This document shows, in pieces, positions 1 through 20,238 of a DNA stretch of 22,356 bases. This stretch comes from a virus. Positions within the stretch are counted from its first letter, which is position 1, and every line of letters begins with the position of its first letter. The notes below the pieces were generated by a model. It searched no databases and was not told the DNA's origin. It was given only the letters and a program-made list of their open reading frames with translations. Position numbers and translations under genes: made by a program. The stretch lies in the IMG/VR virus record IMGVR_UViG_3300032265_002214, positions 1 to 22,356 of that record; one strand, written 5' to 3'.

Positions 1-3000
1 ATCTTGCCGCAACAAACATACAACGTGGGCGTGATTTAGGCCTTCCAAGTTTAAATCAAATGCGTGTAGCATTAGGGTTTTCAGCATATACTAGCTTTAG
101 TCAAATTACTAGCGATGCAACTATAGCCAATGCATTACATTCAGCTTATGTTAATATTAATAACATAGATTTATGGGTTGGCGGTCTTGCAGAGGATCGC
201 TATCCAGGAGCAATGGTGGGTCCAACATTCCGTGCTATCATAGCAGATCAAATGAGTCGATTACGAGATGGCGATCAATCTTGGTATCAAAATCAACCAT
301 GGAATCCAACAGATTTAACCTGGATTAATAACACTACTTTATCTGATATAATTTTACGTAATACTAATACAGTACACATGCAGACTGATGCATTTGTAGC
401 AGTAGAACGTGCAGACCTTATTTCAGGCGCTGTTCCAAGCATAGTTGCTCGATCACCTAGCACTAGTCCTCCTCCATTGTCCGATACTGCTGGAATAACA
501 TTTACGGTGATTAGTGGATCATTACCGCCTGGATTGATATTGCAAGGTAGTACAATCATCGGAAGTCCGTATATCACACAAGGCACTCCAACATATAATT
601 TCTGTATTAGAGCCAGCAACGGTATTGATTTTTCAGATAGAACATTTACTATACAAGTAGACGGTGCTAATCCTCCTGAGTTTGTTACACCAGCAGGCAA
701 GCTAGCAATAGGGCCTGCACATCAGTTGTATGCGTTGGATAGTAGTTATGTTGACTATCAACTAGAAGCATTTGATCTAAACATAACATTAGGAAAAAGT
801 TTAAAATTCTTTATAGCTAGCGGCGATGGATCATTGCCTCCGGGATTAACATTGTCAGATGATGGTAACATCAGCGGCTATATTATTCCACAACTAATAC
901 TAACTCCTATTATGGGTACCGGTGAGTTTGACCAAGCGTATTATGATATATCTGGATACGATTTTGCACAAATACCTACCGACGGATTTGATAGTTACAA
1001 TTACGATAAAGTATTTTTTGATTATAACCAACCTAGTGTTCTACCAAAAAGTCTAAATGCCAACTATCAATTCCGTGTAACTGTAACAGACGGTATTACT
1101 TTTGCACAAAGAGTTTTTAGAATTTTTGTAATTGGTAACGACGAATTCCGTGCAGATACTACAACTAGAGATGGCTTTGCTGGCGGCTTTACCGCAGATT
1201 CAACCTTCCTAAGAAGTCCTGCATGGTTAAGTAAAACTAATTTAGGTACATTTAGATCTAATAACTATATCACGGTTCCTGTATCCCTATATGATAATTC
1301 AGGAGTTATATTTAGATTAGAAACTACAAATTGCGAAGTATCAGCAGTAACCCGTAGAATAGCACTAGGAGATAACGGTCTTGGCAATACAAAGTTATCT
1401 ATTACCAATGTCGACGGGATTCCAAAATTTGGCCAGTATCTTACATTTGATAATTTCTTAGACGGTGCTACAGGAAAAGTTTATCAAATTTCCGCAGTTG
1501 ATTATATTCTTATCCCGGTAGATGGAACACTTACTAGTGGTAGTAACATGATTACAAATGTTACTAAATTTAATAATTTAAGTGTAGGATCTACAGTAAC
1601 AGGTGTTGGTATTCCTAAGAATACAACAATTACAGCAGTTTATAGATCTTTAAATAGTATCGAACTAAGCAACAATGTAAGAATAACGACCAGTACCACT
1701 GTAAATGTCACTCTTGCTGGTTATTATAGATTAACTCTTACAAGTCCTTTGGAAATTGAAGTTCCAGATCTAACTAGTTTTTATATTGGTTCATTAAGTG
1801 AATTACCTGATGGAACAAGTTTTGATGTTAATACTGGTGAAGTTTACGGGCGTGTTCCTTATTTGCCAAGTGTTACTACTACATATACATTTACCATAAC
1901 AGCCGTAAGATTTAGTACAAATATTAATGACCAGGTAACCAGCTTTAAAACTTTTAATATAACTATATTAGGTAGTATTACAAGTGAGATGACTTGGGTA
2001 AGCCCAGACAATTTGGGATCGATTCCTGCAAACTATCAAAGTACACTAAGAGTTACTGCTACTAATAATATTCCCGGTAGTGTCGTATTATATACATTAA
2101 CCGGTGGATCGTTACCGCCTGGACTTAGCCTTGGCAGCGATGGCGAACTAATTGGAATGCCTAATCAGTTTTATAATGCTAGTACTGGCGAACTTGGTGT
2201 AACTACATTTTACGATATCAATTCATCTGGCCATCGGTTTTCTAATCAAACATTCGATGGAGGTACCACTAGTATTGATAGGCAATTTAAATTTACAGTC
2301 ACAGCTAACGATCAGTACCAATATAGTGCCCTACCAAAAACATTTACATTAACTGTTACAACGCCAAACACATTACCATTCAGTAACGTGTATGCAAAAC
2401 CTTTCCTTAGTATGGCTCAGCGAAGTATATGGCACGATTTTATAAACGATACTACTATTTTCTTACCTGAAAATATTTACAGACCCACAGATCCGTCGTT
2501 TGGAGTACAATCCAATCTTAATATGTTGATCTATGCCGGTATACAAACTGAGGCGGCAGCGGCCTATGTAGCGGCCATGGGTGTTGGATTTAAAAAGAAA
2601 CGATTTAAATTTGGGGCATACATGTCTGCGGTTGCCGTGGATCCGGTTACTAACGAAAGTGTTTACGAAGTCATTTATGTTCCTATGATAGATCCATTAG
2701 AAAACAATGGTAAGCATTTAACCTTAGTTGAGCATACTAAATATCCAGAACCTGTTTCTATTACAGTAGACGAAACTATAGATAATAACTTGTTTAAAAT
2801 TACTACTGATAGTAACGCATACGAAGCAGGTACACCTAAAATAACAAATTATTACCCAAACAGTATTACTAACTGGCAAACACGATTAAGCCAAACTACG
2901 GATCATTTTGATAGTACTGGTAAGTCTATTCCGGCCGAAACTGAACGTAATTATTTGCCGCTGTGGATGCGTAGTATACCCTCTGGATCAAAAACACAAC

Positions 3001-3194
3001 TAGGATATGTGTTATGTGTGCCTGTATGTTTTTGCAAGCCAGGAACTTCAGCAATAATTTTAAGTAAGATAAAAAACAGCGAATTTAGCTTTAATAACAT
3101 TGATTTTACCGTAGATAGGTTCACTATTTCCGCAGTCACGGGTTACACAAGCGATAAATACCTTATATTCAAAAACGATAGGATAACAGTATGA
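1..3194 (+). CDS. Virion-type protein: C-terminal animal heme peroxidase domain fused to Ig-like (He_PIG) repeats (5' partial)
   Basis: The frame is open from base 3 to the left edge, so the ATG at base 60 is internal and the true start lies outside the window. Translation from base 3 gives the motif TNIQRGRDLGLPSLNQ, the hallmark of animal-type heme peroxidases. Its Asn aligns with myeloperoxidase Asn421, which hydrogen-bonds the proximal His. Then follow IDLWVGGLAED, VGPTFRAIIADQ, LRDGDQSWYQN and a LSDIILRNT segment, all in family order up to about base 420. The usual His of RGRDHG is Leu here. The rest is beta-rich, with SLPPGL-type Ig-like repeats at residues about 154, 258 and 684 counted from the base-60 Met. 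Length and composition suggest a tail-fibre or baseplate-associated protein. The proximal and distal His would lie upstream, so activity cannot be judged. It is joined to the next gene by an ATGA overlap. Confidence 0.85.
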   Translation, partial: LAATNIQRGRDLGLPSLNQMRVALGFSAYTSFSQITSDATIANALHSAYVNINNIDLWVGGLAEDRYPGAMVGPTFRAIIADQMSRLRDGDQSWYQNQPWNPTDLTWINNTTLSDIILRNTNTVHMQTDAFVAVERADLISGAVPSIVARSPSTSPPPLSDTAGITFTVISGSLPPGLILQGSTIIGSPYITQGTPTYNFCIRASNGIDFSDRTFTIQVDGANPPEFVTPAGKLAIGPAHQLYALDSSYVDYQLEAFDLNITLGKSLKFFIASGDGSLPPGLTLSDDGNISGYIIPQLILTPIMGTGEFDQAYYDISGYDFAQIPTDGFDSYNYDKVFFDYNQPSVLPKSLNANYQFRVTVTDGITFAQRVFRIFVIGNDEFRADTTTRDGFAGGFTADSTFLRSPAWLSKTNLGTFRSNNYITVPVSLYDNSGVIFRLETTNCEVSAVTRRIALGDNGLGNTKLSITNVDGIPKFGQYLTFDNFLDGATGKVYQISAVDYILIPVDGTLTSGSNMITNVTKFNNLSVGSTVTGVGIPKNTTITAVYRSLNSIELSNNVRITTSTTVNVTLAGYYRLTLTSPLEIEVPDLTSFYIGSLSELPDGTSFDVNTGEVYGRVPYLPSVTTTYTFTITAVRFSTNINDQVTSFKTFNITILGSITSEMTWVSPDNLGSIPANYQSTLRVTATNNIPGSVVLYTLTGGSLPPGLSLGSDGELIGMPNQFYNASTGELGVTTFYDINSSGHRFSNQTFDGGTTSIDRQFKFTVTANDQYQYSALPKTFTLTVTTPNTLPFSNVYAKPFLSMAQRSIWHDFINDTTIFLPENIYRPTDPSFGVQSNLNMLIYAGIQTEAAAAYVAAMGVGFKKKRFKFGAYMSAVAVDPVTNESVYEVIYVPMIDPLENNGKHLTLVEHTKYPEPVSITVDETIDNNLFKITTDSNAYEAGTPKITNYYPNSITNWQTRLSQTTDHFDSTGKSIPAETERNYLPLWMRSIPSGSKTQLGYVLCVPVCFCKPGTSAIILSKIKNSEFSFNNIDFTVDRFTISAVTGYTSDKYLIFKNDRITV
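1524..1716 (+). repeat. Shared beta module, copy 1 (in the peroxidase/Ig protein)
   Basis: This stretch encodes a module with the order GT..(S/N)N.I.NVT.F.NL..G.TVTG.GIP..TTIT..., then a hydrophobic strand and a Ser-Asn turn. A similar module lies in the next gene at 4250-4453. The match is at protein level only. Confidence 0.55.
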
Positions 3195-4789
3195 CAAGTG
3201 CAATTACACCCTCAACAGTTTCAACTACTTTTCCCGTAGCAGGACAAGATAATAATAGCCAGGGTTTTAGAGATAATTTTGCGGCAATTGCCAATAATTT
3301 TACACACGCCGCTAGTGAAATAACAGCTCTCCAAAGGGTATCCATTTTGACTGCTGATTTAGCTACGCAGGTTAACACCGTGGTTAATAATTTACAAGGT
3401 AGCACGTTGAGTAATGGTTTATCTCAACTAATGTCTAATACATTCTATAGTGCTACTGGTGTGTCTGGTAGTGTTACTATCGACCTAAGTCAGGGCGATG
3501 TCCAACAATTTATCCTAGCAGGCAATACTACTTTTAACTTTGCACTTACAGGTTCATCTACAGGTTGGCCAAACTATACCGGTGTAAGTGTGTATAGTAA
3601 AGCTGTCATTCTTTTACAAAGTAATACACTTGGTGTATGGACTCCAACATTTACTACTACTGGCGGTACTGTAAGTTACGATACTAACTTCCCATTCATA
3701 CCAGGCACTACTACCCCAGGAGTTAGTGTTGGTGGCGAAGGTGTTGCTAGCATTGCAGTTGGCACAAAAGGATCTGGATATCAAAGTTTAGTTAGTATTT
3801 CATTTAGTGGTGGCAGTCCTGTTACTAACTATACGTTGCCAACTGCATCGGCAACATACACAGTAGTAGGTGCTAGTGCATCTAACAACATTTATAATAG
3901 TAGTACTGGGGTAGTGACGACGTTAACTGTTACTGGTTCCTCAGGTACTGGACTTACACTAGGTACTGCTACATTAACATTTACCGCACAGCGATATAAA
4001 CCTTATGAAAATGGTGAAACTATTATTGTATCCGGAATGAATCCTAGTGCATATAACGGTGTGTTTACAGTAACCGGTTGTACAACTACTACTGTATCAT
4101 ATACTAGTGCGGCTAGCGGTAGTATGGTATCAGCAGGTACTATTACTGGAGGTACTCCAGGGAACGGATACGCTGTTGGCGATATTGTAGTAATGAATTC
4201 AAATTCAGATGTACAACTAGTAGTATCTGCGATTGCTACATCATTTACCGGCACTGTACGAGCTAACAACAACGTAATCCGCAATGTAACTAACTTTACT
4301 AATATTGCAAACGGATTAACGGTTACTGCGGCTACAGGAACAATTCCTGCCAGTACAACTATTACAGGATTTGATCCTGCCCAGGGCACGGTGACAATCA
4401 GTCAAAATGCTACTGGTACTGGTAGTACAGATAGTGATACATTAATAACCTATGTAAGCTCTACAGGGCCTGTAAGAACACTGACTGGTGCGCCTATTGG
4501 AACATTAACAAACCCAATCGTCGGTGTTCGTGGATTTACAAGTATTACTGGATCTGGATCCGGCCTACGTGCCGCAATTAACTGTGGTGTTGGTGCTATT
4601 AATGTAACAACTCCAGGTGATGGCTATACTACAACTGCTCCTAACGTGTCTATTACTAGCGGTGGAGGTACTGGTGCAACTGCAACTGCTTCAATCACAA
4701 CAGGTACTGGTAATAGAATCCAAGCAATTGAAGCATGGACTGTTAACGGTGGACGAAATGTTTACCTACGTTACTTAGGACAATATTAA
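3191..4789 (+). CDS. Glycine/threonine-rich virion structural protein, probable tail fibre or baseplate component
   Basis: A 532-residue protein very rich in Thr, Ser, Gly and Val. The N-terminus has a PVAGQDNNSQGFRDNF motif followed by a short helical stretch (residues about 15-70). I associate this opening with structural proteins of T4-like aquatic phages. The remainder is predicted beta. It holds loose repeats of the type GSGYQSLVSISFSGG, GNGYAVGDIVV and GDGYTTTAPNVSITSGGG, which are common in phage fibres. Residues about 354-421 resemble a module in the preceding protein. No enzymatic motif is seen. The start overlaps the upstream stop (ATGA) and the stop overlaps the next start (TAATG), so all three genes are probably translated together. 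The structural role is inferred from composition and context. Confidence 0.75.
   Translation: MTSAITPSTVSTTFPVAGQDNNSQGFRDNFAAIANNFTHAASEITALQRVSILTADLATQVNTVVNNLQGSTLSNGLSQLMSNTFYSATGVSGSVTIDLSQGDVQQFILAGNTTFNFALTGSSTGWPNYTGVSVYSKAVILLQSNTLGVWTPTFTTTGGTVSYDTNFPFIPGTTTPGVSVGGEGVASIAVGTKGSGYQSLVSISFSGGSPVTNYTLPTASATYTVVGASASNNIYNSSTGVVTTLTVTGSSGTGLTLGTATLTFTAQRYKPYENGETIIVSGMNPSAYNGVFTVTGCTTTTVSYTSAASGSMVSAGTITGGTPGNGYAVGDIVVMNSNSDVQLVVSAIATSFTGTVRANNNVIRNVTNFTNIANGLTVTAATGTIPASTTITGFDPAQGTVTISQNATGTGSTDSDTLITYVSSTGPVRTLTGAPIGTLTNPIVGVRGFTSITGSGSGLRAAINCGVGAINVTTPGDGYTTTAPNVSITSGGGTGATATASITTGTGNRIQAIEAWTVNGGRNVYLRYLGQY
4250..4453 (+). repeat. Shared beta module, copy 2 (in the 532-residue structural protein)
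   Basis: This stretch encodes GTVRANNNVIRNVTNF, then NGLTVTAATGTIPASTTIT and a TVTISQNATG strand. The order of motifs is the same as in copy 1 at 1524-1716 of the neighbouring gene. It is probably a mobile or duplicated fibre domain. Confidence 0.55.
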
Positions 4790-5029: not shown

Positions 5030-5539
5030 ATGCGCCTAGATCAATTCGGTAATCCCATTTTTAATTCAGTAGATATATTCAAATTCCTTTATCAAGGAAA
5101 ACTTACCAACCTCAAAGATATCACAGTAGATTATAATGATGATATTGAACAGTTGGAACAAACTGCTGGGTTTACCTTTCAACGATTTAATGAACAATTA
5201 CAATCTATTGATATAGCAGATTTTGATCAAGCATTACAAAGCGATTGGTTTATGCCTCCCGAGTATAAAGATTTTGATGTAGAAAAATGGTGCTTGGACA
5301 AATGTACTACACAAGAACAAATTGGCCGCGTCAATGCAGAATTAGATGCATTTAAAGAACGAGGAATGATTCCACTACTACAATGGACCAAACATTTTGT
5401 AGATACTTGCAATTCTAATGGTATCGTTTGGGGAGTAGGCCGAGGATCAAGTGTGGCAAGTTTTGTATTATACTTATTGGGTGTACATCAAATAGATTCA
5501 GTAAAATATAATTTAGACTGGCAGGAATTCCTGAGATAA
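5030..5539 (+). CDS. DnaE-like fragment: stand-alone piece of the DNA polymerase III alpha palm, lacking the catalytic aspartates
   Basis: A 169-residue protein whose last 60 residues match bacterial DNA polymerase III alpha (C-family). IPLLQWTKHFVD leads to NGIVWGVGRGSS (GRGSS at about 137-141), then VLYLLGVHQIDSVKYN and WQEFLR. In full-length DnaE this segment runs directly into the P-E-R-V-S-M-P-D-x-D block that carries two catalytic Asp residues. Here the frame stops right after FLR, and the downstream sequence does not resume the domain. The N-terminal 110 residues are not recognised. Polymerase activity is therefore not expected from this protein alone. It could bind nucleotide or DNA, modulate the host replisome, or be a decaying remnant. 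No good ribosome-binding site precedes the ATG. The gene lies 10 bases after its neighbour. Confidence 0.7.
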   Translation: MRLDQFGNPIFNSVDIFKFLYQGKLTNLKDITVDYNDDIEQLEQTAGFTFQRFNEQLQSIDIADFDQALQSDWFMPPEYKDFDVEKWCLDKCTTQEQIGRVNAELDAFKERGMIPLLQWTKHFVDTCNSNGIVWGVGRGSSVASFVLYLLGVHQIDSVKYNLDWQEFLR

Positions 5540-5566: not shown

Positions 5567-5797
5567 ATGGCAAAACAAATTTATAAAACTGCTAGAGGTG
5601 TTGAAATAGACATGATCAAAATGGTTCAAAAGAACGAAATGGAACTTGCAGTTGGCAACGCTAGAGTTAATGCTCGAGGCGATAGAATTGGTCCTAACGG
5701 CCAAATCATTAAAACACGTGAAGAAATCCTTGCTGAACGTGCAGGTATGGGCAACGGCAAAGATCTTAGCGGCCACGATCCAGAGGGTAACGAATGA
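5567..5797 (+). CDS. Small conserved T4-like phage protein, function unknown
   Basis: A 76-residue protein beginning MAKQIYKTARGVEIDM, with a central VGNARVNARGDRIGPNGQII stretch and a charged tail. The TARGVxxDM...NARGD arrangement looks like a small family I associate with T4-like aquatic phages, often listed as structural, but I cannot assign a role. The start is well supported by AAGGAG seven bases upstream. The stop overlaps the GroES-like start (ATGA), so the two are probably co-translated. It has no signal peptide or membrane segment. Confidence 0.7.
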   Translation: MAKQIYKTARGVEIDMIKMVQKNEMELAVGNARVNARGDRIGPNGQIIKTREEILAERAGMGNGKDLSGHDPEGNE

Positions 5798-6222
5798 ATT
5801 TAGATTTAACACCTAAGGTAGGAGTCAAGGTAAAGGGAAAACTTATTCCTATCCGCGACAATGTTTTAGTTACCGATATGGAATTTGGTGAAAGAAAACT
5901 TGGTATGTTTGTACTACCAAGTGATGATGGAAAAAGTGAAGGCGTTCGCCATCGCTGGGGTCGAGTTTGGGCTATTGGGCCTCAACAAAAAGATGTCAAA
6001 GTTGGAGAGTGGATACTGCTTGAACACGGTCGTTGGACTCGTGGGGTTACTGTAGTAGAAGATGACGGTTCCGAAATTATTATCCGTCGTGCAGATATCA
6101 ATGCTATTTTGATGGTCAGCGAAGATAAACCCGATGAGAAATATATGAACGTGCAAGGTGGCCATTCTAAAGTACAGCATCAAGAATGGGATCCAGCCCA
6201 ATTTTCTGGCCCGCAATTTTAA
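5794..6222 (+). CDS. GroES-like co-chaperonin (functional counterpart of T4 gp31)
   Basis: A 142-residue protein with a Cpn10 pattern. LIPIRDNVLVTDMEFGERK corresponds to the first strand. GMFVLPSDDGKSEGVRHR sits where the mobile loop that contacts GroEL would lie. GRVWAIGPQQKDVKVGEWIL matches the VxAVGxG...VxxGDxVL strand, and IRRADINAIL fits the C-terminal strand. It is longer than bacterial GroES (about 97 residues) because of an N-terminal lead and a C-terminal tail. Such proteins cap the host GroEL chamber; T4 gp31 does this to fold the major capsid protein. The gene is translationally coupled to the gene upstream and followed by a strong terminator. The family call is by pattern, and the capsid-folding role is inferred from T4. 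Confidence 0.75.
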   Translation: MNLDLTPKVGVKVKGKLIPIRDNVLVTDMEFGERKLGMFVLPSDDGKSEGVRHRWGRVWAIGPQQKDVKVGEWILLEHGRWTRGVTVVEDDGSEIIIRRADINAILMVSEDKPDEKYMNVQGGHSKVQHQEWDPAQFSGPQF

Positions 6223-11670: not shown

Positions 11671-12564
11671 ATGACTGATTATTACCAAACACTAGGTGTT
11701 GGCGAAAATGCTAGCCCAGATGAAATAAAACGAGCATACCGAAGCTTGGCTAATAAACATCATCCAGACAAGGGTGGCGACCAGGCTAGATTTAAAGATA
11801 TTAGTGTTGCTTATGACAACCTAAGTGATCCACAAAAACGTGCCGAGTACGATCAGCAAAGACAGTTTGCTAATATGCCCGGCGGCGGAACACAATTTCA
11901 TTTCCACACTGGAAATCCGTTTGGCGGTGGTCATCCCTTTGGTGACATCTTTGGCGGTGGTGGAAATCCTTTTGGTCAAGGACACCCGTTTGGCGACATC
12001 TTTGGTCAGATGCATAGGCAACAGGTACGCCGCAATAGAGATTTAAATATACAATGTACAATATCGTTTGCAGATAGTTTTCATGGTAAACAACTAGAAG
12101 CAAACTATCAACTACCTAGCGGCCGTAATCAAAATGTTCAAATCAATATCCCTGCTGGTGTACAGAATAACGACACGATACGATATCCCGGGTTGGGTGA
12201 TGATAGTGTTCCTAATGCTCCTCGAGGCAATTTAAATGTAACTGTATTTGTACAATCTGATAGTAATTACGAACGTCGTGGAGACGATTTATATACTACT
12301 ATTGACGTTACACCAATCGAAGCAATGATAGGAACTAAGAGAACTGTTAAAACGCTTGGCGGTATTAGCATGGAAATTGATGTTAGGGCTGGTGTTGAGT
12401 CTGGTACAGAATTTGCCAGTGCCGGTAATGGATTTAGAAATTTAAATACACAACAAGTAGGCAGATTCGTTACAGTTATAAAAATTAAAACTCCTCGAGT
12501 TACTGATCCTGCGTTAATTAAAAAACTGGTAGACTTAAATGCTGAAATTAGTAAAACATCCTGA
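11671..12564 (+). CDS. dnaJ: DnaJ/CbpA-like J-domain co-chaperone
   Basis: A 297-residue protein. The J domain (1-65) begins DYYQTLGVGENASPDEIK and has the essential HPD at 31-33. A Gly/Phe-rich linker (about 70-115) contains a duplicated 15-residue unit. Two C-terminal substrate-binding beta domains (about 120-290) carry SFADSFHGKQ, IPAGVQNNDTIRYPGLGD, DLYTTIDVTPIEAMIG and GTEFASAGNGF. No CxxCxGxG zinc-finger repeats are present, so it is a class B (CbpA-like) form. It would stimulate the ATPase of host DnaK. It is read from the sigma70 promoter at 11612. Its last 26 bases overlap the deformylase gene in another frame. Confidence 0.93.
   Translation: MTDYYQTLGVGENASPDEIKRAYRSLANKHHPDKGGDQARFKDISVAYDNLSDPQKRAEYDQQRQFANMPGGGTQFHFHTGNPFGGGHPFGDIFGGGGNPFGQGHPFGDIFGQMHRQQVRRNRDLNIQCTISFADSFHGKQLEANYQLPSGRNQNVQINIPAGVQNNDTIRYPGLGDDSVPNAPRGNLNVTVFVQSDSNYERRGDDLYTTIDVTPIEAMIGTKRTVKTLGGISMEIDVRAGVESGTEFASAGNGFRNLNTQQVGRFVTVIKIKTPRVTDPALIKKLVDLNAEISKTS
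11911..12006 (+). repeat. Two in-frame 45-base repeats in the dnaJ Gly/Phe linker
   Basis: Copy 1 at 11911-11955 and copy 2 at 11962-12006 encode GNPFGGGHPFGDIFG and GNPFGQGHPFGDIFG. They differ at one residue but in eight of fifteen codons. Confidence 0.85.
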
Positions 12565-13048
12565 TCCTATTTTAAAACAACAAGCCAAACCATATGAGTT
12601 TGGATTAGAATGGCCAAGCGCAGACGAGCTTGAAGATCAAATGCTTGATGTAATGATGGCCGAAAAGGGCATTGGTTTGGCCGCTAATCAAGTTGGCATT
12701 CTAAAACGAGTATTTGCCATTAAATTATCTAACGGTAGAAGTTTATGTATGTTTAATCCAAAAGTACTTTCTACTAGTGATAAAATGCAAGACGGGGACG
12801 AAGGCTGTTTAAGTTTTCCAGATCTTTGGTTGCAAATAACTCGACCTATAGAGGTTGTTGCCGAATACTTTGACAAAAACGCACAAGAGTGTAAAATAAC
12901 ATTAACAGGTATAGATGCTAGATGTTTCTTACATGAACTGGATCATTTAAACGGAGTTTGTTTTACAGACAACGTAGGTCAATTAAAACTAGCATTAGCG
13001 GTGAAACAACAACAACAAAGGAAGAGTAATGGTCGAACCAAGCGATAA
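12539..13048 (+). CDS. def: Peptide deformylase
   Basis: A 169-residue protein with all three deformylase motifs. Motif 1 is GIGLAANQ at 44-51. Motif 2 is EGCLS at 88-92, whose Cys90 is a metal ligand. Motif 3 is HELDH at 132-136, with two His ligands and the catalytic Glu133. It removes the formyl group from the N-terminal Met of nascent proteins. The N-terminus LKLVKHPDPILKQQA is the usual family opening, which supports the start at 12539 despite the 26-base overlap with dnaJ. The end overlaps the ClpA-like start by 20 bases. Phage deformylases are known in aquatic myoviruses, where they have been proposed to support synthesis of short-lived photosystem proteins. No such genes are visible here. 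Confidence 0.95.
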   Translation: MLKLVKHPDPILKQQAKPYEFGLEWPSADELEDQMLDVMMAEKGIGLAANQVGILKRVFAIKLSNGRSLCMFNPKVLSTSDKMQDGDEGCLSFPDLWLQITRPIEVVAEYFDKNAQECKITLTGIDARCFLHELDHLNGVCFTDNVGQLKLALAVKQQQQRKSNGRTKR

Positions 13049-15296
13049 CTTACAAGCAGTTTTTGAACGTGCAATAGAATCAGCAAAAAAACTGCATCAT
13101 GAATATTTGACCATAGAGCATATCCTATTGGCTATGCTAATTGATGAATCATTTAATAACTGTGTACAAGGATTTAATAATAGTGCAGAAACTCTTAAAA
13201 AGAATTTGCAAGACTATGTCACTACTAAATTAAACGAAATAACTATTCAAGATGTAGTAGTTAAGCCTAAAAAAACACAAGCCGTTGAACGTGTACTCAA
13301 TCGTGCGTTTACACAAGTATTGTTCAACGGACGTCAACGTATTGAACCTACTGATGTGTTTTTAGCTATGATGGGTGAAAAACGTAGTTGGGCACAATTT
13401 TATATCCAACAAGCTGGTATTGATAAAGACAAGTTTGCTGATTTTATTAATAACACAGTAGAAGAATCCGAAGAAGAAAATATGCCACAAGAAGGGAATG
13501 TTAATAAAGCACTTGCGGCTTATACAACTAATCTAAACGATGCTGTAAACAAAAACAAGATTGATCCTGTTATCGGACGAGTTGAAGAATTAGAAAATAT
13601 TGCCTTGTCCATGGGACGTCGTAGTAAGAACAATGTAATCCTTGTAGGAGATCCAGGTGTAGGTAAGACTGCCATAGCAGAGGGACTTGCTTATAATATT
13701 GTCAAGGGTGCTGTACCAGACTTTCTAAAAGACTATACAGTTTATAATCTGGATATTAGTGCTATGCTTGCTGGTAGTAAATATCGCGGCGACTTCGAAG
13801 AACGTTTTAAAATGGTTCTAAAAGGATTAACTAAAAAAGGTAAAACTATTTTATTCATTGACGAAGCACACATGATCTCTGGCGCAGGATCTGCCGGCAA
13901 TTCAGCTAACGACCTTGCCAACATGATGAAACCTGCATTGAGTAAAGGCAATATTAAAGTTGTAGCGTCGACTACATGGGAAGAATTCCGTAAACACTTT
14001 GAGAAGGATCGTGCATTGATGCGTCGTTTCCAACGTATTACTATCGACGAACCTAGTCAAGAAATGACTTTGCAAATACTTAAAGGAGTTAAAAAGTACT
14101 ACGAAGGGTTCCATAATGTTAAAGTTCGCGAGGATGCGTTAAGTGCCGCAATTAAGTTAAGTGTCAAATATCAAACAGATAAGAAACTACCAGACAAGGC
14201 AATTGACTTAATTGACTTAGCTTGCTCACGTTTCAATCTTAAACTAGCTGACGAACGTGTAGTTTCCGAACGTGAGATCCAATATGAACTTGCTAAGATG
14301 ATTCAGATGCCTGAAGAAAAGATCATGGAAACTGAAAGTACTGGACTTTCTAATCTACAAACAAATCTTGAAAAAGAAGTTTACGGACAGGATCTTGCTT
14401 TAGTAGAAATTGTAGATAAGATTATGGTCGCGCAAGCTGGACTTAAGAGTGAAAACAAGCCTATTGGTAGTTTTGTGTTCATGGGGCCAACTGGTTGCGG
14501 TAAGACTGAAACTGCTAAAGCCCTAGCTAAAAACTTAGGTGTTAAATTGCTACGTTTTGATATGAGTGAATATCAAGAGAAGCATAGTATCAGCAAGCTG
14601 ATCGGTAGCCCTCCAGGTTATGTTGGATTTGAAGAAGATTCTGGATTGTTGATTACTCAAATCCAAGAAGCACCTAATGCTGTTCTGTTGTTTGACGAAG
14701 TTGAAAAATCACATCCAGATGTAACTACTATTTTGTTGCAAATGATGGATAATGGGTTCATTACCGGTTCAAATGGTAAGAAGGCAGATTGCCGTAACTT
14801 GATCCTTATCCTTACTACTAACGCTGGCGCACAAGACGCTGAGAAAAACGTTATTGGCTTTGGTACACAGGAAAAAGATTACAGCGATAAAGATTTGAAA
14901 AAGTTCTTTACACCAGAGTTCCGTAATCGTTTAGATGGTATTATTACATTTAATAAACTTGCTAAAGAAACAATGAGTAAAATTGTTAACAAGTTTATTG
15001 ACGAACTTCGTGAACAGGTTAAAGAAAAAGGTATCCGTATTAAAATTAACAAAGAGGTTATTGAATGGCTGATTGTTAAAGGATTTGATCCTAAGATGGG
15101 TGCTCGTCCGCTACAACGTGTAATCGATAAAGAAATTAAACGACCATTAGCCAAGCTAATGCTGTTTGGTGATTTGAAAGCAGGCGGTTGGTTAACTATC
15201 AATATTGCAGAAGATGCAATTAATCTAGTTACTAAGCCTAAAGAAGTCAAATTACCTTTACTAACATCGGATGTAATATTATCAGATGCAGTATAA
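13029..15296 (+). CDS. clpA: ClpA-like AAA+ unfoldase, with an IGF loop for ClpP docking
   Basis: A 755-residue Hsp100 protein. The Clp N-domain (1 to about 150) begins VFERAIESAKKLHHEYLTIEHILLAML. AAA-1 has Walker A GDPGVGKT at 207-214 and Walker B ILFIDEAH at 274-281. AAA-2 has Walker A GPTGCGKT at 486-493 and Walker B LFDEVEK from 554. There is no long middle coiled coil between the two modules, which points to ClpA rather than ClpB. An IGF tripeptide at 609-611 lies before FFTPEFRNRLD, where ClpA keeps its ClpP-binding loop. It could thus feed substrates to host ClpP. AGGAAG precedes the start. The upstream deformylase gene overlaps by 20 bases and the next gene by 11, which suggests coupling. 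Confidence 0.92.
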   Translation: MVEPSDNLQAVFERAIESAKKLHHEYLTIEHILLAMLIDESFNNCVQGFNNSAETLKKNLQDYVTTKLNEITIQDVVVKPKKTQAVERVLNRAFTQVLFNGRQRIEPTDVFLAMMGEKRSWAQFYIQQAGIDKDKFADFINNTVEESEEENMPQEGNVNKALAAYTTNLNDAVNKNKIDPVIGRVEELENIALSMGRRSKNNVILVGDPGVGKTAIAEGLAYNIVKGAVPDFLKDYTVYNLDISAMLAGSKYRGDFEERFKMVLKGLTKKGKTILFIDEAHMISGAGSAGNSANDLANMMKPALSKGNIKVVASTTWEEFRKHFEKDRALMRRFQRITIDEPSQEMTLQILKGVKKYYEGFHNVKVREDALSAAIKLSVKYQTDKKLPDKAIDLIDLACSRFNLKLADERVVSEREIQYELAKMIQMPEEKIMETESTGLSNLQTNLEKEVYGQDLALVEIVDKIMVAQAGLKSENKPIGSFVFMGPTGCGKTETAKALAKNLGVKLLRFDMSEYQEKHSISKLIGSPPGYVGFEEDSGLLITQIQEAPNAVLLFDEVEKSHPDVTTILLQMMDNGFITGSNGKKADCRNLILILTTNAGAQDAEKNVIGFGTQEKDYSDKDLKKFFTPEFRNRLDGIITFNKLAKETMSKIVNKFIDELREQVKEKGIRIKINKEVIEWLIVKGFDPKMGARPLQRVIDKEIKRPLAKLMLFGDLKAGGWLTINIAEDAINLVTKPKEVKLPLLTSDVILSDAV

Positions 15297-16317: not shown

Positions 16318-19317
16318 ATGTTCCTTCGTGAACTATTTGTAAATCCTAAAAAGCCGTTGGTAGAAGCCAACCTCACTATGTTTACTGATCTAGAGCCGTT
16401 TGACCAGGAAATTGCCGACGACTTAGCTAGAGAAGTTTCTCGATATACTAGCGGATTAGGCAAGCATATAGTTGTTTATAAAACGGGAAGCGCAGCCAAT
16501 CCAACTCCTGGAAAATTCAGCAATGATTTAGATCTAATGATGGACTTGGGTCATCTTATGAAAGTTTTTGGAACTACTGACGGTAAAACTACAAGAGCGG
16601 CTCTCGAACAACATTTACAAAGTCAAGGGCTTGAAACCAAAAAAGCCGGGAGCGAAGTACATTTTAAATTACCATACAACGGTAAGTTTTATCAAGGCGG
16701 TATAAAAGTTGTTGCACATGCAGAGCATGTACACAAAATGCATGTACATAGTATTCCACATGGTAGTCCATACAAAGGTGTCCACAAACAAGTATTCCTA
16801 AGTACATTAGCAAGTAAATTAGGTATGCTATATAGCCCCGACGAAGGATTATATGCAAGAGATGCTGATGGGAAAAAATCTAATTTTATTACATACAATT
16901 TAGATGAGATTGCTAAACGTCTTTTGAATCCTAATGCAACTGCTAAAGATTTAGGTAGCATAGAAAGTATAATGGCGGCAGTTCCAGATCAAGAACTTAG
17001 AAATGAAGTTTTACAACGTGCGAGTGAAGGACCTAGTTGGAAAACTACTCCTCCAAAAACATTATCCGAGGCCACCGCGCCATCGGTGGGTCGTAAGTAT
17101 CAACACATTGAAGATTTAGTATTCACTAATGGTAGTGTCGGTGGATTGCATGCCGTAGAACGCTTACGTCATATGACCACTAAAGGTAAAGGTATAGAAT
17201 TAAAATGGGATGGTAGTCCTGTAGTATACTGGGGACGAGACGAACACGGTGTGTTCCATATGTTTCCAAAAAATGCATGGGATTATATAAAGCGTGGTAC
17301 AACACACACTAAGAGTGGCGTGAGTACGATGATGAACGACCCTGATGATGTGATGCAATTTATACTTGGCACTGGGAAGACAGAGCCAGGCAAAGAAGCA
17401 CAGCGTTCTTCATACGCACAAGGACTTGCAGAGTTATGGCCATACTTTGAGTCAATCAGCCCCGATTCTGGTTTTTTAGAAGGCGGTATCTTATTCAGTC
17501 CAATGCAACCTCCTGTATTAAACCCTACTACTGGCGATTGGGATTTTACTCCTAATATAACTAGTTTCCACATTCCTTCGAACAGTGATTTAGGTAAACG
17601 TATTGGAAAAGCAAAAGTTATGGTTGCGGCCACAGGGCATTACACACATATTGGTAGTGAAGAAGGTCGTTATGCTAATGCCGAACAACTAAGTAGTCCT
17701 GATGTGATTGTACAAGGTACAACTTATGTAGAACATGCTCCTAAGATTGACCATGCTGGGTTAGATCATGCAGAAACATATATTAAAAAGAATAAAGCAA
17801 TCATTGATAGTTTTGTTGCTGGTCAGCCTGGATTAACTAATCCCGGCGATAAGCTATACACATTCTTTAACCAAAAATTACGTGTAGCAGGAGTTAAACA
17901 ACAGTTTGTTGACTGGGCTAATAGTACACTCAGTGCCGGGCAAGCACAAAAATTAACCAGTCATCCTGGTTTAGATGCAGTACTAACTGCTGTAGAGATG
18001 CTGACTAGTGAAAAGATGAAAGTGATTGCCGCATTAAGTAGTGGTACACACGGTGGTATTAGACAAACTAAACCCGAAGGCTATGTACAAGCACATCCCG
18101 GCGGTAAGTTTAAGAATGATTTACCTGGACAGTTTGTTAAAACTATTGACCAAGCTAACTGGGCACCACGTAAAGATAATATTCAAGAGAATATTAATCG
18201 TACCGGCGAAGGTAAAGCCGCTGTAGTTGGGTGGGGTCGCGGGATGGGCCACAAGGGACACATGTATTTGGCCAGTAGTGTAATTACACAGGCTTCCGAA
18301 ACTGGGGCAGATCCATACTTTGTTGTAAGTCGTACTGTAGGAAAAGACGATCCGATTACTCCAGACGAAAAAATGCAAATCTATCGCAAAGTATTTCCTA
18401 AACACGGACATATATTTCATACTGCGACAGACGAAATGCCCGATTTAACTCGTGTACTAACACAATTAGATAAACATGGATACACTGACGTAGTTGTAGT
18501 CGTAGGCGAAGATCAAAAACATGCTCTAAGTTATGTTACACAATACAATGGGAGACCTAATAAAGCAGGCGAGATTCCGTTTACCTTTAACAGTTTGAAT
18601 GTTATTAGTCGTCAAGAAACTAATGACCCTAGCAAAGATGAAGAAGGGCCACGTGCTACACCTATGCGCCAAGTGTTGACTGACCCGGAAGGTTTTAAAG
18701 CAGAGAATCCAGATTATGCTAATATGCCTACTAAACAAATGCAGTTTGCAGTATGGCGAGATTCTATGGACTCGCAAATTAGTGACGAAGAAGTTTTAGA
18801 TTTGATGCACAAAGCACAGCAACGCATGAGTGACCCTACCTTTGGAAAAGCACCAAAGAAAGCCAAGCCTGTAAAGGAGAATTTGGTTAAATATGCTAAT
18901 AAGGTAATAAGAGAAATGAGAGCTAAAGAATTCGTTGTTGAAGGTCACCCAAATGCAGGAACAGGGCATACTACTGAGCTAGCTACCGATCATGATAATG
19001 TAATGAAAGGTGCAAGTCGTAGCCGTGACATTGGCGGATATGATCGTGTATATCATATGAATCGTTTAATGATGGCCATGGCCATGCATGACGGTAAAGG
19101 TCCTCATCCTGTAGACAGTGCTAAAGATACTTGGTTTGAAAAGTATAATACGATGCATCCAATGACTCAAGAAGAAGACAATATGATCCGTGGTGCTATG
19201 AAAACTGTTCCAACAGATGGAAAACATGTCAGCAAATTTGCCAAGAGTGAAGAAGCTGAAGGCATTAATATGGTAAGCCCAGTTGCCAAGCCTAAAAAGA
19301 ACAAGTACGGAATATAA
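16318..19317 (+). CDS. Multidomain nucleotidyltransferase protein with capsid-targeting-like tag (possible packaged polyprotein)
   Basis: A 999-residue protein with four modules. (a) Residues 1-16: tag FLRELFVNPKKPLVE. (b) About 17-251: polymerase-beta-type nucleotidyltransferase pattern, G57-S58 then D70-x-D72. (c) About 252-624: ligase-like module with K296-W-D-G299, the covalent nucleotidyltransferase motif KxDG, preceded by YQHIEDLVF and followed by LEGGILFSP. (d) About 625-854: HIGH-superfamily adenylyl/cytidylyltransferase pattern WGRGMGHKGH (639-648), then a K-M-x(5)-V-FPKH segment. (e) 867-999: an internal MRAKEFVVEG tag and a module duplicated in the next gene. gp21-like (L/V/I)xE sites mark each joint (LVE|A at 14-17, LSE|A at 249-252, IQE|N at 622-625, VKE|N at 852-855, VVE|G at 873-876). 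Module activities are by motif only; (c) is the least certain. Confidence 0.75.
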   Translation: MFLRELFVNPKKPLVEANLTMFTDLEPFDQEIADDLAREVSRYTSGLGKHIVVYKTGSAANPTPGKFSNDLDLMMDLGHLMKVFGTTDGKTTRAALEQHLQSQGLETKKAGSEVHFKLPYNGKFYQGGIKVVAHAEHVHKMHVHSIPHGSPYKGVHKQVFLSTLASKLGMLYSPDEGLYARDADGKKSNFITYNLDEIAKRLLNPNATAKDLGSIESIMAAVPDQELRNEVLQRASEGPSWKTTPPKTLSEATAPSVGRKYQHIEDLVFTNGSVGGLHAVERLRHMTTKGKGIELKWDGSPVVYWGRDEHGVFHMFPKNAWDYIKRGTTHTKSGVSTMMNDPDDVMQFILGTGKTEPGKEAQRSSYAQGLAELWPYFESISPDSGFLEGGILFSPMQPPVLNPTTGDWDFTPNITSFHIPSNSDLGKRIGKAKVMVAATGHYTHIGSEEGRYANAEQLSSPDVIVQGTTYVEHAPKIDHAGLDHAETYIKKNKAIIDSFVAGQPGLTNPGDKLYTFFNQKLRVAGVKQQFVDWANSTLSAGQAQKLTSHPGLDAVLTAVEMLTSEKMKVIAALSSGTHGGIRQTKPEGYVQAHPGGKFKNDLPGQFVKTIDQANWAPRKDNIQENINRTGEGKAAVVGWGRGMGHKGHMYLASSVITQASETGADPYFVVSRTVGKDDPITPDEKMQIYRKVFPKHGHIFHTATDEMPDLTRVLTQLDKHGYTDVVVVVGEDQKHALSYVTQYNGRPNKAGEIPFTFNSLNVISRQETNDPSKDEEGPRATPMRQVLTDPEGFKAENPDYANMPTKQMQFAVWRDSMDSQISDEEVLDLMHKAQQRMSDPTFGKAPKKAKPVKENLVKYANKVIREMRAKEFVVEGHPNAGTGHTTELATDHDNVMKGASRSRDIGGYDRVYHMNRLMMAMAMHDGKGPHPVDSAKDTWFEKYNTMHPMTQEEDNMIRGAMKTVPTDGKHVSKFAKSEEAEGINMVSPVAKPKKNKYGI

Positions 19318-19318
19318 T

Positions 19319-19789
19319 ATGCGAGCTAAAGAATTCTTATCAGAACAAAATGGCAAGGCAGTTATATACAAGGCTAAGAAATTTACTCACGGCAAACTCG
19401 GTGTGCCTAACGATCCTCTAGAAGCTCATAATACTCATAGCCGTTCACAAGATGCTAACGAATACGGTACATATCGCGACAAATTAAATCCCGAGCAAGA
19501 ATTAGTAATGCGTGGTGCAATTGGCGTACCAAATGAAAACCCTTATGATTTATACCGATTAGGTATGGCTATTGCAGGTGGCGATCGCAACATCCCAGGT
19601 GTAGATGCGCTAGGACAAACTGGATTAATCTTGCCATTCAGTGAACAAGAGCATCAAACTATTAATGCACATATTAGACGTCAGGGACTGAAAGCAGAAA
19701 AACTTAGTACACACGGCAGTGAAGAACCTTTGCAGAATAATAAGGTCAGTCCTGTAGCTAAAATTAAAAAGAATAAGTACGGTATATAA
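19319..19789 (+). CDS. Tagged protein, paralogue of the C-terminal module of the preceding gene
   Basis: A 156-residue protein beginning MRAKEFLSEQ and ending VSPVAKIKKNKYGI. The preceding gene has MRAKEFVVEG at residue 867 and ends VSPVAKPKKNKYGI. Between the ends both contain a body with a RGA(I/M)...P pattern (LVMRGAIGVPNENP here, NMIRGAMKTVPTD there) and HxTxS/D-type polar stretches. I prefer the start at 19319 over the in-frame ATG at 19283. It gives the shared tag and avoids a 12-residue extension overlapping the upstream gene. The tag suggests head packaging. The stop overlaps the Dps-like start (TAATG). Function is unknown. Confidence 0.75.
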   Translation: MRAKEFLSEQNGKAVIYKAKKFTHGKLGVPNDPLEAHNTHSRSQDANEYGTYRDKLNPEQELVMRGAIGVPNENPYDLYRLGMAIAGGDRNIPGVDALGQTGLILPFSEQEHQTINAHIRRQGLKAEKLSTHGSEEPLQNNKVSPVAKIKKNKYGI

Positions 19790-20238
19790 TGGAACATAAC
19801 AAATATCATCTTGCTATTAAATCTGCTTTTGCTAGCGAATTTGCATTTTATTTAAAAGCACATAACTTTCATTGGAATGTAGAAGGTATTCATTTCCGCG
19901 AACTGCACGATTTGTTTGGAACAATTTACGAAGAAGTATTTGAAAGCATAGATCCATTTGCAGAAAAGATACGTGCCATGGGTGCATATACTCCTGCAAG
20001 TTTGCAAAAGTTTAGTATGCTAAGTCAGCTAGACGATGAAAATGATATACTACCTCCAGAACAAATGGTTGCAGAATTGCTAGCAGACAGCGAAAAAATG
20101 GCGGAAATATTCCGTGTGACATTTGACATGGCCGAAGGTGCTGGCGATCATGGTCTCAGTAACTTCTTGGCAGACCGTCAAGATGCACACAAAAAACACT
20201 GCTGGCAACTACGTGCCACACTAAAGCACTATGGATGA
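19789..20238 (+). CDS. dps: Dps-family ferritin-like protein
   Basis: A 149-residue protein with the Dps signature HNFHWNVEGIHFRELHDLF, then DPFAEKIRAMG, and a C-terminal LADRQDAHKKHCWQLRATL helix. Ferroxidase ligands align with E. coli Dps as H28 (H51), H40 (H63), D55 (D78) and E59 (E82). The position of D67 is Gly44, so one ligand side chain appears missing. Dps forms 12-subunit shells that oxidise iron with peroxide and can bind DNA. Here the N-terminus is short and has only a few basic residues. It lacks the capsid tag of its neighbours but is co-translated with them (TAATG start; 8-base overlap with the next gene). It could protect phage or host DNA from oxidation. Confidence 0.9.
   Translation: MEHNKYHLAIKSAFASEFAFYLKAHNFHWNVEGIHFRELHDLFGTIYEEVFESIDPFAEKIRAMGAYTPASLQKFSMLSQLDDENDILPPEQMVAELLADSEKMAEIFRVTFDMAEGAGDHGLSNFLADRQDAHKKHCWQLRATLKHYG

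Follow-up and report, generated by a model that had tools for sequence, protein, structure and literature searches.

An animal-type heme peroxidase cassette nested within the Ig-like domains of a phage tail-type protein

The left-edge open reading frame of a 22,356-bp virus record (IMG/VR IMGVR_UViG_3300032265_002214; this whole stretch is referred to as the window) encodes part of a protein that combines an animal-type heme peroxidase with immunoglobulin-like (Ig-like) domains. The frame, at positions 3–3194 on the plus strand, is open over 1063 residues and runs off the contig edge. By comparison with related contigs, it is the 3′ part of a tail-type protein with an Ig scaffold, approximately 1400 residues long and encoded by a large tailed phage, and we regard it as virtually certain from the aligned sequences that the peroxidase is nested inside that scaffold. 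The peroxidase constitutes a cassette of approximately 1.6 kb, shown by sequence comparison to have been exchanged repeatedly between phages. The protein is interpreted, with somewhat better than even confidence, as a virion-borne, H2O2-dependent oxidase on an Ig-type tail protein that would be used at the host surface.

Residues 1–131 of the frame match positions 393–530 of the Pfam profile PF03098 (An_peroxidase; E = 4.3e-41, and 2e-44 in another search). Among solved structures, lactoperoxidase-type chains also match the fragment, 8s6c with E = 8.5e-33 and peroxinectin A with E = 1.4e-23; the resemblance is therefore not due to chance. A He_PIG Ig domain follows in the same open frame (residues 154–219, E = 2e-14). 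Two statements of the first-pass annotation, which had been made from the letters of the window, are thereby confirmed: the C-terminal part of an animal-type heme peroxidase lies at the left edge, and it continues into an Ig-like part without a break. The leucine that this annotation had read in place of the histidine of the RGRDHG motif is present, as is the asparagine that it had equated with myeloperoxidase (MPO) Asn421. The latter aligns with Asn403 of DdPoxA (peroxinectin A), which we take to be MPO Asn421. The distal and proximal histidines had been placed upstream of the window, which shows neither; relatives show both.

The complete protein was recovered from related contigs, whose loci are denoted by L numbers. 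IMG/VR was scanned with the window frame, yielding 13 relatives, and again with the peroxidase alone, yielding 30 loci; five more, L152–L155 and L165, came from a profile scan with bacterial relatives included, giving 35 IMG/VR contigs in total, with identities of 62–100%. These scans, of a phage collection and of viral contigs, may leave out records very near the window. The whole gene, including the peroxidase, is present in L003 (8780–12985) and in L011 (8783–12979), the latter on a 223-kb contig. A search of the full protein against PF03098, as the first-pass annotation had proposed, was run on these two relatives (proteins P0001 and P0002) and returned a match over positions 3–530 of 530 (E = 2.5e-114 and 3.2e-114, 383 bits with a cut-off of 25), placing the domain in the peroxidase-cyclooxygenase superfamily over the full length of the profile. 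The full-length phage peroxidase also matches the bacterial 'lactoperoxidase' 8s6c (E = 1.4e-83) and peroxinectin A (PDB entry 6erc, E = 6.6e-63).

At 21 of the 30 loci, the peroxidase is flanked by scaffold sequence at both ends within a single frame. The remaining nine end at a contig edge inside the peroxidase and hold scaffold on the side that is present (N-terminal in four, C-terminal in five); the scaffold C terminus is likewise present in L152–L155 and L165. The in-frame flanks rule out the chimeric join near base 450 that the first-pass annotation had raised against its own proposal. The same protein occurs without the peroxidase in L002, L006, L009 and L014. Carriers have an N terminus like IWTQPSGYSFGTFPEQVSVNLPLP, followed by the peroxidase, after which Ig sequence resumes (SDTAGITFTVISGSLPPGL), whereas in non-carriers both Ig halves join directly; the peroxidase therefore resides in a loop of the first Ig (He_PIG) domain. 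In an AlphaFold2 model of the L003 N terminus with the peroxidase (18 rows), which is poor overall (predicted local distance difference test (pLDDT) of 36.5), residues 11–30 (68–73) and 571–630 (67–84), which are the two halves of the Ig domain, score best. In a divergent group the peroxidase occupies a second site, which on our reading of the sequences is the last Ig domain: in L152–L155 the peroxidase starts at residues 516–612 and ends at 1037–1132, with the C-terminal domain at most approximately 30 residues later, and L165, which is cut at its 5′ side, has the same spacing between the peroxidase and the C-terminal domain.

Exchange of the cassette is apparent from identities at third codon positions (36 pairs, with 11 pairs in a further comparison; values are given for pairs with the window and for the clearest others). 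The window and L012 are 98.7% identical at these positions in the 159 peroxidase codons, against 40.9% in the rest of the protein. The corresponding values are 96.2% and 44.5% with L003, 89.9% and 42.9% with L011, and 89.9% and 53.2% with L017. The cassettes of L021, L023 and L024 have not been recently shared with the window (47–55% in the peroxidase, 41–46% in the rest). The window scaffold is nearest to that of the peroxidase-less L002, its starred sister on the scaffold tree. That tree, built by a quick method from long rows, comprises 78 rows (19 with the peroxidase, 56 without, 3 unknown), and the peroxidase label changes 13 times on it, with at least nine changes forced by starred branches. 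L153 and L154 share 90% identity in the 2148-bp block that contains the peroxidase, and 65–80% in the other matching parts. Within the cassette itself, the amino-acid identity of L003 and L017 falls to 62% at residues 150–200, between stretches of 90–100%, a mosaic in the region of L003 residues 100–250 that suggests recombination inside the peroxidase domain.

The clearest case is a pair of near-identical phages. L017, with the peroxidase, and L055, without it, are 98.65% identical over 4234 bp upstream and 99.35% identical over 8573 bp downstream, and at the site itself L017 has 1768 bp and L055 has 166 bp. L017 is matched by L018, and L055 by L056, each pair being separately named contigs. 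The peroxidase is thus present or absent within one phage population, a natural pair in which its benefit would be directly testable. The contigs of the window and of nine of the 30 loci break off within the peroxidase, as would be expected of assemblies where several genomes in a sample share sequence; because contigs end in near-identical cassettes, single left–right linkages may be wrong, but the architecture stands.

Active-site residues were counted in 25 aligned rows, which were not de-duplicated, with partial rows included where they cover a site. Distal Gln (21/21), distal His (21/21) and Arg (22/22) are invariant among the covered phage rows, as are the ester-forming Glu (22/22), proximal His (22/22), Asn (23/23) and Arg (23/23), and L152–L155 agree at the motifs inspected (4/4). 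The two histidines on which the first-pass annotation had made its proposal depend are accordingly found wherever the rows reach them; of the distal Gln-His-Arg and proximal His-Asn set, the window itself shows the Asn. A TGWIDGS-like calcium-binding loop, of the motif type T-x-[FW]-x-D-x-S, is found in all 22 covered rows, with the last Ser replaced by Thr in six and the Asp of the loop kept in 22/22. Excerpts of PMC4420034 describe this motif as incompletely conserved across the superfamily.

The second, Asp-type heme-ester residue is Thr in 21/21 phage rows and in the four further ones. In all eight cellular relatives fetched, the motif has Asp at this position; one of them (L134) also has a second match to the search motif, with Gln for Asp. 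Of the two ester residues of the chordate-type family 1 (MPO/LPO/EPO), only the Glu is thus kept, and the phage domain is therefore placed outside that family. DdPoxA has Ile at the Asp position and a single ester bond, to Glu-236; its oxidation of iodide and thiocyanate is very fast, that of bromide poor (PMC5787809, in part). Given the Thr at the Asp site and the DdPoxA precedent, a one-ester enzyme of lower potential is predicted. The position of the RGRDHG histidine is Leu in 18 and Ala in 4 of the 22 covered phage rows, the dual oxidase 1 chain 7d3e also aligns with QRGRDLG, and the position is absent from the catalytic residues named in the available portion of PMC5787809. The substitution was considered as a possible defect and rejected, since Leu is common in the phage rows and occurs in 7d3e at a position not named as catalytic; it gives no sign of inactivation. 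The peroxidase domains have zero or one Cys (16/16 examined), and therefore need no disulfides and are compatible with folding in the cytoplasm. The ratio of nonsynonymous to synonymous substitution rates (dN/dS) is 0.065–0.31 in 11 pairs chosen from 120 possible (values with dS above 1.5 are rough), showing purifying selection on the coding sequence. A pseudogene or inactive remnant is unlikely given the kept residues and these ratios, and the alignments make it probable that the domain is catalytically competent.

The phage peroxidases are, by sequence, well separated from cellular ones and carry their own Thr signature. The closest cellular match found is WP_322338017.1, on a plasmid of Limimaricola variabilis (37–40% identity). 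Matches of 32–38% identity were found in 5 of 296 genomes of the phylum of a Saprospiraceae metagenome-assembled genome, and a pattern scan of genome contigs, which finds close relatives only, returned one match (33%). Bacterial contamination was considered and rejected on the tail-gene neighbours in L011 and on identities of at most 40% to the cellular sequences found. No peroxidase was detected by tblastn (E = 1e-5) in any of 50,697 GenBank phage records, and no PHROG matched inside the peroxidase of the three proteins scanned. The contigs bring to light a group of animal-type peroxidases that tblastn did not detect in GenBank phages. No report of a phage-borne animal-type peroxidase was found by title or abstract start in open-licence PubMed Central, and in the excerpt of PMC13390420 heme peroxidases are mentioned only in a reference title.

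The scaffold itself is more widespread, with at least 578 relatives in IMG/VR. The peroxidase is present in 19 of 82 unique scaffold frames, a set that is enriched for the peroxidase and in which a few 5′-cut frames are undecided (L054 and L061 were classed so, their contigs opening where a cassette ends or shortly beyond it). Set beside the 578 or more relatives, the 35 contigs make the peroxidase look like a minority trait, the ratio being rough because the scans differ. Nine longer peroxidase-less scaffolds were scanned for other enzymes in the slot; seven gave only He_PIG matches and two gave no Pfam match.

Several observations connect the scaffold with the virion. In L011 it is encoded among tail genes: the matches of the genes upstream are Mtd_N (E = 2.3e-8) and two PHROGs, one for tail fibres (E = 6.7e-30) and one for virion structural proteins (E = 1.7e-21). 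The scaffold C terminus matches gp329 of Agrobacterium phage Atu_ph07 (E = 3e-10) and a protein of Sinorhizobium phage Phosso (E = 6e-9). In both phages (Phosso, L050 5358–9221; Atu_ph07, L051 5049–8804), a subtilisin-type Peptidase_S8 domain is located N-terminal to the He_PIG domains of the same scaffold. Most virion proteins of Atu_ph07 identified by mass spectrometry fall in three clusters, one of which comprises coding sequences 284–329 (PMC6102473, in part). By number, gp329 is the last of this cluster, assuming that the locus tags follow the numbering of that paper; gp327 is a tail fibre both in the record and in the excerpt of PMC6102473. A gp23-type capsid protein was found on the contigs of L016 (which is the L011 contig) and L040 (2 of 15 records searched), and part of the L011 capsid gene has DNA matches of 69–71% in Phosso, PA5oct-like and other jumbo phages. 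The L011 neighbours and the homology to gp329 make it likely that the peroxidase scaffold protein is part of the virion, and they are the support for its description as virion-type in the first-pass annotation. As host clues, amoC was found in 0 of 16 records (a weak negative, as no control genome matched) and psbA in 0 of 16 (one control matched).

From here we infer a course of events, from the building of the protein into particles and its loading with heme to its activity, substrate and timing. The domain would bind heme b in the host cytoplasm and form one ester bond to Glu, and the Ig-scaffold protein with its nested peroxidase would be assembled into the tail, so that the peroxidase is carried on the outside of the particle. 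Reaction with ambient or host-derived H2O2 would yield compound I, which could oxidize thiocyanate, iodide or aromatic groups at the host surface, and a surface polymer or receptor cover might be chemically modified or loosened during adsorption. Action of the peroxidase on the host surface at adsorption, taken by itself, appears possible, at somewhat less than even chances. A broader statement is offered tentatively: that a swappable peroxidase, at two sites in the Ig domains of one tail-protein family, lets the virion attack the bacterial surface with environmental or host H2O2, oxidatively rather than hydrolytically.

A number of points weigh against a virion-borne oxidase used at the host surface. 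Many scaffold relatives lack the peroxidase, so the domain is dispensable. The pLDDT of 36.5 leaves no usable peroxidase model, and the active-site geometry is taken from sequence homology. The window, which covers the downstream side only, has no named tail gene among the genes scanned; its next gene is matchless, and the scanned genes beyond have replication, chaperone and other functions. The link to gp329 depends on a gene number, with the correspondence of record and paper assumed. As regards the exchange of the cassette, the older alleles L021 and L024 differ from the window about as much as their scaffolds do (third-codon identity of 47–49% against 41–44%); the family of cassettes is thus old, and recent exchange concerns only part of it.

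The same kept active-site residues would also suit a peroxidase that mainly clears H2O2 in the vicinity of the particle or of the newly infected cell and so protects virion or host, with no surface polymer as its target. The window does contain a Dps/ferritin-like gene (19789–20238), and for a bacterial member of the family side activities as a catalase and as a classical peroxidase are described (PMC10204396, in part). However, a few copies per virion would barely alter bulk peroxide, for which a soluble catalase should be better suited, and a surface role is indicated by the tail-type scaffold, which in two rhizobial phages bears an S8 protease; we consider such protection unlikely. Somewhat less likely still is a heme-bearing ligand or adhesin, kept for binding (as heme bait for an uptake receptor or in peroxinectin-like adhesion) rather than for turnover. 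An Ig-type tail protein with fast-exchanging alleles is what would be expected of receptor-binding parts, and peroxinectins have adhesion functions according to excerpts of PMC4420034, but the invariant distal Gln, His and Arg serve peroxide cleavage and not heme binding.

A protein that works inside the infected cell, or is set free from it, without being part of the particle would fit the absent or weak PHROG matches of the whole protein and the other genes of the window, which are not named tail genes. Such a role is improbable in view of the tail-fibre neighbours upstream in L011 and the homology to the end gene of a virion cluster defined by mass spectrometry. The repeated gain and loss on the tree and the presence or absence in one population could also reflect a selfish module, hitchhiking by homologous recombination between tail genes without steady benefit, but the low dN/dS and an active site that is invariant down to 62% identity render this very improbable. 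An assembly chimera of a bacterial peroxidase gene and a phage gene, for which the contigs that are cut inside the peroxidase might have spoken, is refuted for the architecture and has otherwise a negligible probability: in each of the 35 contigs the peroxidase is joined in frame to this one scaffold family over whatever part the contig covers, L017 and L018 are identical (100% over 17,912 bp) across both junctions, L055 and L056 agree across the site, and the nearest cellular sequence found is only 40% identical.

The features of the window frame and of the gene that follows it are listed in Table 1. For the scaffold C-terminal domain, an AlphaFold2 model from 68 sequences (pLDDT 75.4, predicted template modelling score 0.72) has the LigT/Usb1 fold, with structural similarity to Usb1 (VIA Z-score of 10.8 and root mean square deviation of 3.5 over 171 residues with PDB entry 6d2z) and to LigT-type entries (Z-score of approximately 9); Foldseek gave only E = 0.04 for the same model. 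The model also resembles phage Ig proteins, among them one of Atu_ph07 (E = 2.1e-11) and, with E = 1.5e-8, one of Klebsiella phage K64-1. The 2H phosphoesterases are defined by two HxT/S motifs, which the scaffold domain lacks. No invariant or near-invariant His was found among the 68 rows (38/68 at most), and the His-rich columns, model residues 91 and 133 (38/68 and 37/68), lie outside HxT/S motifs in the window. Because it has no conserved catalytic His, the modelled domain is probably a structural module. By eye, a similar beta-type stretch (GS..ITNVT.F..L..G..V.G.GIP..T.I) seems to recur in the scaffold (window 1530–1721) and in the next gene (4250–4459), and also inside the first Ig domain of some relatives (L012); it looks like a small shared module.

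Table 1 Features of the left part of the window
Feature	Position	Strand	Remarks
Peroxidase cassette, 3′ part	3..479	+	residues 1–159; Pfam match 3–395; holds the proximal-side NIQRGRD motif
Peroxidase, 5′ two thirds			beyond the contig edge
Cassette edge			near residue 158–160, from comparison with peroxidase-less L002
First Ig-like (He_PIG) domain, second half	480..659	+	interrupted by the peroxidase; He_PIG 154–219
Additional scaffold domains (Ig-like and small beta)	660..2366	+	He_PIG matches here in relatives; conserved in peroxidase-less relatives
Scaffold C-terminal domain	2367..3179	+	predicted 2H-phosphoesterase-like (Usb1/LigT) fold; structure model
Next gene	3191..4789	+	start MTSAITPSTVSTTFPVAGQDNNSQGF; no Pfam or PHROG match

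A gene like that at 3191..4789 also follows the scaffold gene in L002, L006 and L012. Further along the window, a 169-residue frame (5030–5539) corresponds to a piece of the NTPase domain of bacterial DNA polymerase III alpha (PF07733, E = 3.6e-13) and is far too short for a polymerase. Genes for a GroES-like protein (PF00166), a peptide deformylase and a ClpA/B-type ATPase lie at 5794–6222 and 11671–15296, and a DnaJ-like gene, recognized by eye, belongs to the same set, its PHROG matches being unnamed. Atu_ph07 has ClpA as gp292 and DnaJ as gp293, numbers within the virion cluster 284–329 (PMC6102473, in part). A 999-residue protein (16318–19317) combines a DUF6267 match with a cytidylyltransferase-like region, and the ferritin/Dps-like gene at 19789–20238 (PF00210, E = 4.8e-23) is a possible second peroxide- or iron-related gene.

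Among characterized enzymes, DdPoxA (superfamily family 6) resembles the phage domain in its full-length homology, in the same distal Gln/His/Arg and proximal His/Asn/Arg, in the single ester Glu and in the loss of the Asp ester residue (Ile in DdPoxA, Thr in the phages). It is, however, a secreted, glycosylated, stand-alone eukaryotic enzyme, whereas the phage domain is nested in a tail-type Ig domain. The bacterial family proteins (8s6c and those of Limimaricola and Saprospiraceae) are the nearest cellular sequences found, none above 40% identity, but they occur outside phage scaffolds and keep the Asp ester residue in the eight fetched. Atu_ph07 gp329 and its Phosso counterpart resemble the phage protein in architecture, with an enzyme placed in front of the homologous Ig and C-terminal scaffold. 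There the enzyme is a Peptidase_S8 and is N-terminal, rather than a peroxidase nested in an Ig domain; the present case shows that a folded enzyme of 500 residues can enter the loops of Ig-like domains as a mobile cassette. Tail-spike depolymerases, virion peptidases and lysins, as generally described, likewise have an enzyme domain on a tail-type protein that phages exchange among themselves. To our knowledge, the tail-borne enzymes known break bonds by hydrolysis or elimination, whereas the phage cassette encodes a predicted heme oxidoreductase. If carried on the virion, such a redox enzyme would add a chemistry beyond these two and represent the oxidative counterpart of the tail depolymerases.

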